In this document: piece after piece, positions 4,863-17,037 of the stretch | How the letters are laid out: each line of letters begins with the position of its first letter | Position numbering within the stretch: position 1 is the first letter of the stretch | Assembly (NCBI GenBank): GCA_016868315.1 | Contig: VGHE01000004.1 | Location: 186,001-250,000, forward strand | Origin: Betaproteobacteria bacterium | Lineage (GTDB): Bacteria; Bdellovibrionota_B; Oligoflexia; Silvanigrellales; Silvanigrellaceae | DNA: 64,000 nucleotides | Direction of reading: 5' to 3' | Notes under the pieces: generated by a model | What the model saw: the letters and a program-made list of their open reading frames with translations, nothing else | The model's database searches: none | Told to the model about the DNA's origin: nothing | Made by a program: the position numbers and the translations under genes

Positions 4863-5004
4863 ACCCCCTGTCAAGTCTCTGACATTGCTCAGATCGAGTT
4901 TTTTACTCCGTGACCGCCTCCCGGTCTGCTCAGGAGGCTCTAGTTGACCCTGACCCAGATGCGATTTAAGCGTGCATTTAGAACTTGAGCAGGAGACAGT
5001 GCGT

Positions 5005-5505
5005 ATGCAGGGTGTGAACAAGGTGATTTTGATTGGTCGATTGGGACAAGATCCGGAAGTGCGTATGACCCCGAACGGACAAGCTGTCTGCAGCCTCCGC
5101 TTGGCCACCAGCGAAAGCTGGATGAAAGATGGCAACAAGGAAGAGCGCACGGAATGGCATCGCATTGTGGTTTGGGGCCGTCAGGCGGAACTTGCAGGGA
5201 AGTACCTTAAGAAAGGCCGCTCTTGTTTCATCGAGGGAAAGCTTCAAACGCGGAGCTGGGACGATCAGCAGTCCGGCCAGAAGCGCTATTCCACAGAAAT
5301 CGTGGCCAGTAATATCCAGTTCCTCGATTCCGGTACGGGTCGCGGCGCGGAATCCTCCTCAGGAGCAGATTTTGGTGGAGACACGGGCTCTGACAATCCT
5401 TTCTTCGGCGGTGGACCGTCATACGACAACGGTGGTGGAAATCGTGCGGCAGCCAATGGTCAGAATTCTCGCGCAGTCGATCTCGACGACGACGTTCCAT
5501 TCTGA
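5005..5505 (+). CDS. ssb: Single-stranded DNA-binding protein
   Basis: This OB-fold protein coats single-stranded DNA during replication, recombination and repair. The 166-residue product starts [20 protein letters not shown], the standard SSB N-terminus; an AGGAGA Shine-Dalgarno sequence at 4991-4996 supports this ATG over the upstream in-frame ATG at 4972. Family blocks [20 protein letters not shown] and [11 protein letters not shown] follow. A Gly/Ser-rich disordered tail ends in the acidic tip DLDDDVPF, which recruits partner proteins. A strong terminator lies right behind it, so it is probably monocistronic. Confidence 0.97.
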
Positions 5506-5531
5506 ATCTTTGCAGCAAATCCGAGTTCAAC

Positions 5532-5562
5532 AACCTTGTCATTGAAGTGACAAGGTTTTTTT
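5532..5562 (+). terminator. Rho-independent terminator after ssb
   Basis: A perfect 10-bp stem (AACCTTGTCA at 5532-5541 with TGACAAGGTT at 5548-5557, loop of 6) runs into seven T residues, 26 bases after the ssb stop. Confidence 0.92.
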
Positions 5563-5595
5563 GTTGTTCTCGGTAAATATAGAGGGTCGTGGGCG

Positions 5596-6261
5596 ATGAA
5601 AATCTTGGTTGCAGGTGGAACGGGACTGGTTGGTACTGAGCTTCTGAAGATTCTCGCGCAGCGTTCGAACCTTCACGTCACAGCATTGGTTCGGCGCCAT
5701 CCTTCGCCTGAGCTGTGTTTAGAACACATTCACTACCTTCCGTTCAATTACGAGAATGAACAAGACTTTGATAAGCTCGTTTCAGAATCGTTTGATGTTG
5801 TCTTTTGTGCGCTCGGTACAACTCGTAAAAAGGCTGGCTCCGCGCAACAGTTTGTCAAGGTGGATTTCGAATACCCGAGACGATTGATCGATGCTCTCGT
5901 ATCAACATTGCCTCTTTTGTGCGTTGTTTCTTCGGTGGGGGCTGATCGTCCGAGCGGGTTATACCTGCGCACCAAAGCTGCTCTCGAGCAGCATATTATG
6001 CAAAGTGGGATGCGTTACGTTATTTTGCGCCCTTCGTTGCTCTTGGGTGCGCGTCGGGAATTCCGCTTGCGTGAATGGCTTGCGGCGAAGTGTTCTCGCC
6101 CCCTTCAAAAAATATTGCGCTCGTCACTAGGAGGAAAATCAGCGATTTATGCACCAATCGACGCTGCTGAAGTCGCGCGTGCTATGGTGATCGCTGCTCT
6201 CGATCACCCTCCGCACTCGGGGGGAGTTATTCTCCAGGGACGCGACCTGCTTAAGCATTGA
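5596..6261 (+). CDS. NAD(P)-binding SDR-like oxidoreductase (HTATIP2-like)
   Basis: The 221-residue protein has an extended/atypical SDR Rossmann fold. The dinucleotide motif GGTGLVGTE lies at the N-terminus, VFCALGTTRKKAGS follows strand 4, and SSVGADRPSGLYLRTKAALE contains the Ser and a YxxxK-like YLRTK. This pattern is typical of the HTATIP2/TIP30 and NAD(P)H-binding-protein group. Substrate and reaction are unknown. It stands about 100 bases ahead of the KefG-like gene on the same strand, and could share its transcript. Confidence 0.75.
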   Translation: MKILVAGGTGLVGTELLKILAQRSNLHVTALVRRHPSPELCLEHIHYLPFNYENEQDFDKLVSESFDVVFCALGTTRKKAGSAQQFVKVDFEYPRRLIDALVSTLPLLCVVSSVGADRPSGLYLRTKAALEQHIMQSGMRYVILRPSLLLGARREFRLREWLAAKCSRPLQKILRSSLGGKSAIYAPIDAAEVARAMVIAALDHPPHSGGVILQGRDLLKH

Positions 6262-6363
6262 GAAAGCACCAGTGGTTGTTGATAAGATGTTTTGACTCTC
6301 AGCTTTCAGGTCTCTGCTTTTGTGTTGCTATGCTGCTCGCATTCTAACATGTGGAGTGGCGAG

Positions 6364-6918
6364 ATGACATCGCAGCGGAAAGCGCTCGTTCTTTTCTTTC
6401 ATCCGAACCATAAATCCTCGCGCGTAGGAAAAGCACTGGCAGAGGCAGCACATGGACTCGAAAATGTCACTGTGCGCGACATGTATTCAATTTATCCTGA
6501 TTACCTAATTGATTTGAAAGCAGAGCAAAAGGTTTTGCTTGAACACGATCTGATTGTCTTTCAGCACCCTGTGTACTGGTATTCGTGCCCACCTTTATTG
6601 AAATTGTGGATCGATGAGGTCTTCGAGTACGGATGGGCTTACGGTACCAGCAGCAATCATCTTCAGGGTAAGCATCTTCTCAGTGTGCTGACAACCGGGG
6701 GTTCGAGCGGTGCCTATGCGCCTGAAGGCTCGAACCGCGACACGATTCACACTTTTTTCTCGCCATTTGCTCAGACCGCTCACTTGTGTGGCATGGCCTA
6801 TGCCACTCCGTGGGTTGTTTATGGTGCACGCGGGATGAGTGATGGTGAGCTGCACGCGGCGTGCGCAGCATACCGAGGTGTTCTTACAAATTATGTTGCG
6901 TCAGGAGTATTGCCATGA
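6364..6918 (+). CDS. NAD(P)H-quinone oxidoreductase-like flavoprotein (KefF/KefG type)
   Basis: The 184-residue flavodoxin-fold protein belongs to the NQO1/KefF/KefG group, which includes the ancillary subunits that activate glutathione-gated K+/H+ antiporters. Family markers are the N-terminal [18 protein letters not shown], the [16 protein letters not shown] block with [17 protein letters not shown], and the TTGGSSGAY flavin-binding loop. I chose ATG 6364 because GGAG (6353-6356) sits 7 bases upstream; the frame is open further up but has no family similarity. Its stop overlaps the next start (ATGA), so it is translationally coupled to the broken kefC-like gene. Confidence 0.85.
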
Positions 6919-8586
6919 GCGGACAAGGTCTTCTGGGCACAGTGGCGGTGCTGCTCGCTGCAGGTGTTGTCAGTGTTCCCTTGGCAAAACGGCTGGGGCT
7001 GGGGAGTGTTTTGGGGTACCTGGTCGCGGGTGCGCTGATTGGTCCATTTGGATTGAAACTTCTGAACAACTCTGTCGAAGTGATGCATGTCGCTGAGTTT
7101 GGAGTTGTTATGCTCCTGTTTTTGGTGGGACTTGAGCTCAACCGCAATCGTTCTGCAAATTCTCTCAGAGCGCGGACTCTCCCAGTCCTCTGTTGGTCAA
7201 GATTCTTTTTCCGTTCTGTTGTTTCAGGATTTAGCGATCATTCCTATCCTCGCACTGATTCCTCTCTTGGGACATGAGCAAGCCGTTTCGGCGAGTTCTC
7301 CGGTTGAGATGTCTCCTGCGCTTCGTACCGTTCTTGCTCTTGCCATTATTATGGCTCTTGTGTGTGGCAGTCGCACAGTAGTCAACCCTCTTTTCCGTTG
7401 GATTGCTGTCACCCGTCAAAAAGAAATTTTCACGGCAGCGGCATTGTTGATTGTTGTGGGTGTTGCCCTTCTCATGGACAGTGTTGGACTTTCGATGGCT
7501 CTGGGAACCTTTCTTGCTGGTGTGGTGCTTGCTGACTGTGAGTACAGACACGAACTTGAAAGCAACATCGAACCTTTCAAGGGTTTGCTGCTTGGTATCT
7601 TTTTTACAGCCGTGGGCAGCTCCATGGATTTCTCCCTGCTCTCTGCGGAACCCCTGCGGATTCTTGCGCTTGTTCTGCTTTTGCTTGCCTGTAAGATATT
7701 CGTTTTGAACCTGTGTGCACGCCTCTTTAACCACGACAGTCGAAATGGTTGGCTCTTTTCCGTTTTGCTTTCGCAAGGAGGAGAGTTTGCCTTTGTCCTC
7801 TTTACGACTGCACAGGGCTTTGGTGCACTCACGGCGAGGCAGTCCTCAGAGCTCACCCTGATTGTCGCGTTATCAATGTTCACAACTCCGTTTTTGCTCA
7901 AGGCAGTTGAAAAGCTCATTGCTCAAGAGAATCGAAAGCCTGCTGTGACGGAAGAGAAGATTGAATCCGATCACAACGCGGTCATTATTGCTGGAATGGG
8001 ACGATTTGGTCAGATTGTGGCTCGATTGCTCCATACAAATGGGATGTCAGCCACGATTGTCGATTACAGTCCGGATATACTCGACCGTGTTCGCGCATTT
8101 GGATTCAAGGTTTACTATGGAGATGCAACTGAATTGTCATTGCTCGAATCAGCTGGCCTTGAGCATGCAAAAGTGGTTGTTCTGGCAATTGATGATCGCG
8201 ACGCGTGTTTGCGTGCCGCCGAGCAAATCAAGAAGCACTATCCGAAGGTACGGATTATGGCGCGAGCATTCGACATGATGCATGCCTATGAGCTGATGGA
8301 TATCGGGGTTCAAGATTTTCAGCGTGAGACCTTTGATTCTGCTGTGGGTCTGGGTGAGCGTGTACTTGTTGAGTTAGGCGTGCATCCACATGCTGCTCGG
8401 AGGCATGCAAAAGTTTTTCATCGTTATGACAACAGGGTGCTTCACGAGCTTCACTCACTGCACAAGCAGCGCAATGAGTTCATTTCCAGCAGCAAGGCGG
8501 CGCGCGAGGAGCTGGGTCGGCTCTTTTCGGTGGATGAGGAAAACTTGCGGCAAGGTCATGCCGATGCAGCATGGGTCAAGTCATAA
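6915..8586 (+). pseudogene. KefC/KefB-like K+/H+ antiporter, broken by an internal out-of-frame deletion
   Basis: The intact family exchanges K+ for H+ through a CPA2 membrane domain gated by a cytoplasmic RCK/TrkA-N domain. Here the N-terminus starts in one frame ([13 protein letters not shown] to FLVGLELN, about 75 residues, ending near 7142). The rest continues in another frame from [15 protein letters not shown] (7132) to the stop at 8586. About 45 residues normally found between GLEL and LSSTA are missing, so this is a deletion with a frame change rather than a one-base error. The 13 bases 7131-7143 can be read as either boundary, pointing to a short-homology deletion. The remaining membrane segments and RCK domain (GMGRFGQIVARLL, YYGDATELSLLESAG) look undamaged. 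The shifted frame has an in-frame ATG at 7087, but a product from it would lack the first helices. Confidence 0.8.
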
Positions 8587-8626
8587 TCTATTCCCTTACT
8601 GCACCGCGTCTCATATCAGAGGCTTT

Positions 8627-9745
8627 TCAGTTCTTTGCCGTTGGGGCAACAAAGGCGCTTTCCGGCAAAGCATAGCGTCCAAGGTTGCTCTTGTTGAGTT
8701 TCAATTCCTTGAGTTCAATGGTCACTTCATAGACCACACCTTCCATGGATTCCTTGATGCTGCGGCTGAAGTCTTCAGTTTTGGGATCCGGAAAATCTTT
8801 GATCAGGCGGCGAAGATCAAAGCTCGCCTGCGGATAATCTGCTGTGACCTCTTCGAGTGTTGTTATGCGCATGGGATAAACCGGGTCGGTTCCGACGCGT
8901 TCAAAAACCAGACCTTCATCAATGAGAAGAGTCACATGGGCGATGTCGGATTTTGCACCTGTTTCTCGAGCCATCTGCTTGTCACGAACAATAATGAATT
9001 CACCAAAAACGACACCTCTAGTGGCAAACTGATTGTTGATTTGAGATGCGCTTTGTCCGCTCAAAAGAGTCTGGGTGAGTTGGGGATCTGTAAAGCGCAG
9101 ATCGACTTCCTGTGGGAGTAAATTATGAATTGTGTACGAAGGTGAAGCGCCCGATGTTCTGCGCAGAACTTCATATGCAGTAGACCAGCAGTTGGTTTCA
9201 GCACTTTTCGAAACCAGCATTTCACCGCCCGCAGAGATGCCATACTGCTTTCTTTCGTCTTGGGTCAGAGGACGACTGCTTTCTGTTTTCTCGGGAATGA
9301 AGGTGTGACGGAGAGTGGCTTGCATCACAGGTGTGAGGAAATCATCGATCAAAAAAACCTTCTTGCCATCAGCAAGATTGCAATCGACTCCACTGAGATT
9401 GTCCTTCCAACCATCGGCATAAACCTTGCGCGCAACTTCACACTGTTCGCGTGTCAGAGTACCGAGCGAAATTGACAGATGCTTGCGTTGAGAATCTCTG
9501 TTTGTTTCTGTGGCGAGAAGAGTTTGATTGGCTACAATTTTTGCTGCCGGAAGTTTTGCAGCCTTGAGTGCTCTCTGCAAATTCGGGAGTGAGATTTCTA
9601 CAGATTGTTGGTTTGAATCATCGAATCGTTTGAATTCTTTCGTCGTCGTTTTCGGCGTGACACTGCAGGCAAGTGTCAGTCCCACGAGCGCAAGGGAAGC
9701 TGTCGCGAGTGTCTTCAGACTTTGTTTGGGAGGTGTTTTCTTCAT
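8627..9745 (-). CDS. Lipoprotein with possible papain-fold (NlpC/P60- or CHAP-like) hydrolase domain
   Basis: The 372-residue protein has a type II signal peptide ending in LTLAC, so Cys27 would be lipidated and the protein anchored outside the inner membrane. I prefer ATG 9745 (preceded by AAGGGGA) to the ATG 45 bases upstream because it starts a normal signal peptide. I do not recognise the family. The second half looks like a permuted papain fold: NCWSTAYEVLRR puts Cys186 at the start of a helix, then GEFIIVRD, then AHVTLLIDEGLVFERVG with His270 at the start of a strand. NlpC/P60 and CHAP amidases share this order. Catalysis is an inference only. It converges on the kefC-like gene and is divergent from the APCDD1-like gene. 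Confidence 0.6.
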   Translation of the reverse strand: MKKTPPKQSLKTLATASLALVGLTLACSVTPKTTTKEFKRFDDSNQQSVEISLPNLQRALKAAKLPAAKIVANQTLLATETNRDSQRKHLSISLGTLTREQCEVARKVYADGWKDNLSGVDCNLADGKKVFLIDDFLTPVMQATLRHTFIPEKTESSRPLTQDERKQYGISAGGEMLVSKSAETNCWSTAYEVLRRTSGASPSYTIHNLLPQEVDLRFTDPQLTQTLLSGQSASQINNQFATRGVVFGEFIIVRDKQMARETGAKSDIAHVTLLIDEGLVFERVGTDPVYPMRITTLEEVTADYPQASFDLRRLIKDFPDPKTEDFSRSIKESMEGVVYEVTIELKELKLNKSNLGRYALPESAFVAPTAKN

Positions 9746-9976
9746 AGCAATCCCCTTCGGTTCGTCCTTCGTAAGCGGGATGTGTGCCAAATTAAGTTAT
9801 TCAAAATATCAGAAAATATTCCGTAGCAGGTGTCTTTCGCCTTGACGATGTCTTTGGAATTTACAGCTGGTGTTGTCAGGTTTTTGGCTACGGCGACCTT
9901 CCTGCAGCTATCTTTCAAATGAGATCCTTTTAAAGTTAATGGGTGCTTTTGTTCCCGTTTCTCATAAGGAGGTTTC

Positions 9977-10576
9977 ATGAATCGTTTTGTTGCTCTTGCT
10001 GTGTCTGTTGTGTTTAGTTGCGTTGCGTTTGCTGCACAGAAGGCGCCCGAGAAGGTCGATCTGACTGGCACTTGGACGAGTGAAAAATGCGAGTCCATGC
10101 CCAACGGCCAAGGTGGTGAAACCTACTTCACACGCACATTTCCGATGACAAACAAAGAGTGGAAGATCGATTTCACTGTGTTCGGCGATAAAGATTGCAC
10201 GCAAGCGCTTTTTACACTGGATGTTGCTGGAGACTGGGAACTGCGTGGCAAGTCCAAAGCTGTTAAGGGTGCTCACAATGCTTTCTTCGGTTTCAAAACC
10301 CGCACACTGACTGCGAAAGCTGATGGTGCAGTTCAGTTTATGAACCAGGCCGGTTTTTGCGGCAAGAAAGATTGGAAGGTGGGTGAGGCTGTTGATATCA
10401 ACTCAACAGGTTGTGCGCAGATCGGTGCAAAGCCCATTACGGATTGTAAAGGTGAGCATGACCTCGTGAAAGTAGACGAGGGTAAGGTCTTCTTGGGCGA
10501 TCGTGGTGGCGACATGTGCAAGAAGCGCAACTATCCGAAGAAGCTTTATCCTGTTGCGCTCATTAAGAAGCCCTAA
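9977..10576 (+). CDS. Exported APCDD1-like domain protein
   Basis: The 199-residue protein begins with a Sec signal peptide (MNRFVALAVSVVFSCVAFA, cleavage before AQK). The mature part opens DLTGTWTSEKCESMP and continues with YFTRTFPMTNKEWKIDF, which resembles the beta-rich APCDD1 domain (L-x-G-x-W, C-E, R-x-F, W). It contains six or more cysteines suited to disulfides outside the cytoplasm. A strong AAGGAGG Shine-Dalgarno precedes the ATG. The bacterial function of this domain is unknown to me. The family call rests on motif spacing seen by eye. The gene ends two bases before the convergent metallo-hydrolase gene. Confidence 0.6.
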   Translation: MNRFVALAVSVVFSCVAFAAQKAPEKVDLTGTWTSEKCESMPNGQGGETYFTRTFPMTNKEWKIDFTVFGDKDCTQALFTLDVAGDWELRGKSKAVKGAHNAFFGFKTRTLTAKADGAVQFMNQAGFCGKKDWKVGEAVDINSTGCAQIGAKPITDCKGEHDLVKVDEGKVFLGDRGGDMCKKRNYPKKLYPVALIKKP

Positions 10577-15061: not shown

Positions 15062-16705
<1,644 letters not shown>

Positions 16706-16746
16706 TCATCTCCGTATGAACAAAAAACAGATGTAAATTTTGAGAA

Positions 16747-17037
16747 TCAGTTGTTGACGATGCCCAGGATGTCGTCTTCGCGCAGAATGAGGTGCTCTGT
16801 GCCTTCGAGCTTGATTTCTGTTCCGCTGTATTTGCTAAACAGAACGCGGTCGCCGACCTTGATTTCCATGGGACGCACTTTGCCATCGGTTAGAACTTTG
16901 CCCGTGCCAACGGCAACGACAGAGCCTTCCATGGGTTTCTCTTTTGCATTGTCGGGAATGAGGATTCCGCCTGCGGTTTTGGTTTCTTCCTCAACGCGTT
17001 TGACCAGAATGCGGTCTGCCAAAGGGCGAATTTTCAT
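16747..17037 (-). CDS. groS: 10 kDa co-chaperonin GroES
   Basis: This heptameric lid of the GroEL chamber is 96 residues long. The start [20 protein letters not shown], the mobile-loop segment [17 protein letters not shown] and the roof block [16 protein letters not shown] are standard. A GGAGG Shine-Dalgarno lies just ahead of the ATG. The upstream 219 bases, to the end of the mutase gene, contain no gene, no CIRCE element and no convincing sigma32 promoter. They include a GC-rich hairpin near 17230-17255 that lacks a T tract. Confidence 0.99.

Follow-up and report, generated by a model that had tools for sequence, protein, structure and literature searches.

RESULTS

The kefC locus

The window is a 64,000-nucleotide stretch of DNA from contig 4, a 272-kb piece of a source genome of 3.24 Mb (27 contigs, 94.76% complete), and the locus lies in the interior of that contig. 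There, a flavodoxin-like oxidoreductase gene precedes a kefC-like gene (Table 1); kefC encodes a CPA2-family antiporter that exchanges K+ for H+ and is gated by glutathione. The oxidoreductase stop and the kefC start overlap as ATGA, an overlap that is kept in the window. The kefC-like gene is broken into two frames at GLELN and LSSTAIVLQ, and the frames and start codons are as the preliminary description gave them. In the N-terminal fragment, residues 1 to approximately 75 are homologous to KefC, the homology stops at GLEL/N, and approximately 45 out-of-frame residues follow. Homology in the C-terminal fragment begins at LSSTAIVLQ and covers the later part of the exchanger domain and then the TrkA_N (RCK) domain. 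Compared with relative G001, the N-terminal fragment is 89% identical over 76 aa, and the C-terminal fragment is 76% identical over 482 aa. By locus match, the nearest named relative is an uncultured Silvanigrella sp. MAG (CAIZJW010000090.1).

Table 1. Features of the oxidoreductase-kefC locus in window coordinates
Feature	Position	Strand	Remarks
Intact KefF/KefG-type oxidoreductase, 184 aa, flavodoxin-like	6364..6918	+	Pfam Flavodoxin_2, 6.1e-43
N-terminal kefC fragment, 120 aa	6915..7277	+	ATG 6915, stop 7275-7277
C-terminal kefC fragment, shifted frame, 499 aa	7087..8586	+	ATG 7087; homology from 7132
Deletion junction, CTTGAGCTCAACC	7131..7143	+	155 or 158 bases fewer than intact orthologues

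An Rfam search of positions 5000 to 10000 gave no match, and neither the promoter-like sites (2, versus 1.4 expected) nor the terminator-like sites (7, versus 3.4 expected; standard deviation, 1.8) had a clear bearing. Five plasmid records matched the query, each in short pieces only (8 to 13% of the query) at 67 to 70% identity.

The missing segment

Intact kefC frames lie behind the oxidoreductase gene, with the same overlap, in relatives G001 (608 codons), G002 (609 codons), and G003 (606 codons), and the proposal that kefC was inactivated by deletion is backed by these orthologues in the same place. The KefC-profile match in G003 counts one internal TAA, but a separate reading was open over 606 codons, and the TAA is taken to be the gene's own stop. 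Comparison with the kefC of close relatives, as the preliminary description had suggested, recovered the missing segment in all three. It is 51 residues long relative to G001 and G003 and 52 relative to G002, which in the register of the window comes to 155 or 158 bases lost; the original estimates of about 45 residues and about 130 bases were too small. The deletion length leaves a remainder of 2 when divided by 3, and the frame is shifted. Programmed frameshifting was rejected as an explanation because a shift of frame cannot restore the 51 to 52 missing residues.

When the protein of the intact relative was compared with the source genome, it matched the locus only at residues 1 to 80 and 122 to 606 and otherwise hit two distant paralogues. 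The missing segment itself, used as a 51-aa query, gave no match anywhere in the genome at E values up to 10, in a search run without a positive control. Over approximately 20 kb, G001 and the window are largely collinear, though not every window gene there was matched. The kefC frame of G001 matches the window in two pieces in different frames, whereas the matches to the dnaJ-, lpxC-, and ssb-like genes, and to two minus-strand genes of 291 and 414 aa, are all unbroken. Besides kefC, one listed frame (155 aa, 16497-16953) matched in two pieces, and it is antisense to two adjacent minus-strand matches.

Two further observations concern the same comparison. Identity to G001 is lower for the oxidoreductase-kefC pair (67% and 76%) than for some neighbors, such as the 379-aa dnaJ-like gene (91%) and the 291-aa gene (96%). 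Downstream of kefC and ahead of the next gene that is collinear, positions 8627 to 10576 hold a 387-aa minus-strand frame and a 199-aa plus-strand frame, both with signal-like starts by eye. The equivalent gap in G001 is only about 60 bases, and neither frame was matched within the 20 kb compared, so these 2 kb may be peculiar to the lineage of the window.

The deletion junction

The 13 junction bases, CTTGAGCTCAACC, encode conserved residues in either frame: LELN in the first and, from 7132, LSSTA in the second. Such a double reading is what alike deletion ends would give, and from it the preliminary description had inferred that these bases could serve as both ends. The double reading holds, and a guiding repeat is plausible rather than proven. 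The 13-mer had no second exact copy on either strand of the window, its sole exact match being at 7131, and a search for a direct repeat there found none. An imperfect 14-nt inverted repeat (7054-7067/7213-7226, 79%) lies in the junction region.

In intact homologues, the two deletion sites share 4 to 8 of 13 bases (mean, 5.8) over 13 of the 14 homologous loci; G004 was left out of this count because it did not fit the motif pattern. G001 shares 6, G002 shares 8, and G003 shares 7 of the 13. Among background pairs that were sampled, 9.5%, 0.8%, and 3.3%, respectively, shared as many, and in the ten more distant homologues the values were reached by 9% to 45% of such pairs. Among close relatives there is thus some resemblance between the two sites, whereas an exact repeat of all 13 bases goes beyond the data. 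Short homology may plausibly have guided the deletion.

What the protein loses

The intact protein of the nearest relative aligned with E. coli KefC (8bxg) over its residues 13 to 562 (E, 1e-150). Through that alignment, the gap in the window corresponds to E. coli KefC residues ~74 to 124 and ends at S125, with which serine 126 of the intact relative aligns. In the structure of E. coli KefC (PMC11150392), S125 lies at a helix break between TM5a and TM5b, and K+ binding is assigned to S125, T127, Q155, and D156. The lost stretch is probably TM4 and TM5a, judging from residue numbering against E. coli KefC. The QD motif of TM6 is still encoded, as LFQDLA, in the C-terminal fragment, and the motif of the relative aligns with that of E. 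coli KefC, Q155-D156 (PMC11150392).

Domain profiles are likewise divided. Pfam Na_H_Exchanger (PF00999) matches the first frame over profile positions 7 to 65 and the second over positions 116 to 374 together with TrkA_N, whereas the intact relative carries positions 5 to 374 and TrkA_N in one frame. Against the NCBIfam KefC model (NF002924; curated cutoff, 752 bits), the C-terminal fragment scored 557.5 and the N-terminal fragment scored 93.3, both under the cutoff. The intact relative also fell under that cutoff (726.8) but exceeded that of the CPA2 model TIGR00932 (270.9 versus 238.3). Transport by the window's kefC product has presumably been lost.

Constraint on the remaining sequence

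The rest of the gene is well preserved. No stop interrupts the 483 C-terminal codons that were compared, and the window retains every one of the 90 positions that 12 intact homologues share without variation (12 of 14 homologues were used; G003 and G004 were missed by the motif filter). When each of those 12 was left out in turn and put through the same test, 0 to 12 changes were found. In the N-terminal part, 0 of 21 invariant positions are changed relative to 11 homologues, as the filter missed G003, G004, and L036 of the 14 for both this test and the tree. Nonsynonymous and synonymous difference proportions between the window and G001 were 0.099 versus 0.669 and 0.170 versus 0.758 for the two parts, with synonymous sites near saturation. 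Since all codons are open and none of the 90 positions is changed, the lesion is either recent or a minority variant or assembly fault.

Rates of change were less consistent. With G002 as the outgroup, the C-terminal part has 47 changes unique to the window versus 16 unique to G001, but with G003 as the outgroup the counts are 21 versus 24, and thus the rate comparisons conflict between outgroups. For the partner gene, the counts are 23 versus 12 (G002) and 16 versus 12 (G003). In the tree of the C-terminal part, the window branch is 0.26 and the G001 branch 0.09. As the invariant positions are untouched, we judge the longer branch to be a matter of lineage rate or of the shape of the tree, not of decay.

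Full residual constraint is also expected from an assembly error or from a fragment still in use. If the assembly were at fault, or if a minority variant had become the consensus, the living population would have an intact gene; the undiminished constraint in both parts of kefC and a draft that is incomplete and divided into contigs would fit. Assemblers normally use word lengths longer than 13 bases, however, and the repeat is at most that long, the locus sits well inside its contig, and the missing segment was found nowhere else in the genome, either with the relative's protein or with the segment query, the latter run without a positive control. We regard this explanation as improbable. The preliminary description had left recent gene loss and assembly collapse side by side; as assembler words normally exceed the 13 bases that the repeat has at most, gene loss is the likelier, and collapse at so short a repeat is unlikely.

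Alternatively, the C-terminal fragment might still be produced, with ATG 7087 or some other codon as its start, and keep a function, such as binding of the oxidoreductase by its RCK domain. The 499-aa frame is open, its invariant positions are kept, and GAAG lies a few bases upstream of the ATG. The first residues, however, come from kefC codons read out of frame, nothing ahead of the TM5 break is present, the relatives with a strong match (G001 to G004) have a full-length frame, and recent loss explains the conservation equally well. A retained function is very improbable, and the particular version in which a split KefC remnant, expressed as a free RCK-bearing membrane fragment, regulates together with the oxidoreductase deserves just as little credence.

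The oxidoreductase partner and other homologues

The partner was described as an intact, KefG-like gene directly upstream. It is intact and overlapping, and is better called KefF/KefG-type: the protein scored just over the NCBIfam KefF cutoff (210.4 versus 210 bits) and under that of KefG (185 versus 240). The oxidoreductase-kefC arrangement is common to the window, G001, G002, and G003. We surveyed 12 genomes, namely, the source genome and 11 relatives. Strong oxidoreductase matches (E, 1.7e-45 or lower) were found in 4 of the 11 relatives, G001 to G004, and KefC-model scores above 650 bits in the same four, while the other seven had neither gene at that strength. No kefC above 255 bits was found in G005 (83% complete), G006, or G007, and thus not every member of the family has a high-scoring kefC. 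Oxidoreductase and kefC therefore co-occur in the sample, and in the source genome the partner is present but the antiporter gene is not intact.

Other homologues were found in the source genome. A KefC/YbaL-type paralogue of 550 aa, 35% identical, has an intact frame on contig 3 (L044, 2968-4620); it scored 297.6 bits with the KefC model and 271.2 with the YbaL model, both far under the cutoffs. A second homologue, a 741-aa frame, is on contig 2. Replacement by another kefC copy was rejected, as both are distant paralogues, though redundancy through them is possible. Loss of glutathione synthesis as the reason for kefC loss was unsupported: among the candidate synthesis genes in the genome, a GCS2 match exceeds its cutoff. 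A glut_syn match is weak, in two pieces, and under its cutoff, which none of the 12 genomes surpassed. A literature search for Silvanigrella together with KefC found nothing.

DISCUSSION

How kefC was broken in this genome is best explained by ordinary gene inactivation, and the window very probably carries a recently inactivated kefC. About 155 bases were deleted, probably when short stretches of similar sequence at the GLEL and LSSTA codons slipped or annealed. The deletion put the rest of the gene out of frame and probably took out TM4 together with the half-helix TM5a. A ribosome starting at 6915 would then stop at 7277 and yield a 120-residue stub. Any protein begun at ATG 7087 would be missing all that precedes the TM5 break and would be unable to form the six-helix core. 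The deletion may be fixed in the population.

Gene loss thus appears to have been caught early, as in other known cases: the antiporter gene is disrupted, but neither the partner gene nor what is left of kefC shows damage. The case matters mainly for annotation, as an annotator could mistake the 499-aa frame for a functional antiporter.

Some bacterial pseudogenes form by deletion between short repeats, and like them, the window's kefC has a clean internal deletion, a frameshift, and an otherwise preserved gene. Unlike in such pseudogenes, the ancestral repeat copies are unreadable here. In E. coli, an ancillary oxidoreductase gene lies upstream of kefC and overlaps it (PMC10224563). The locus resembles that of E. 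coli KefC (PDB 8bxg and 8by2) with KefF in its domain order and in the overlapping oxidoreductase gene upstream, but the window copy is without the residues corresponding to ~74 to 124 and is out of frame. Closer at hand, the intact kefC of G001 occupies the same place as an uninterrupted frame where that of the window is broken.
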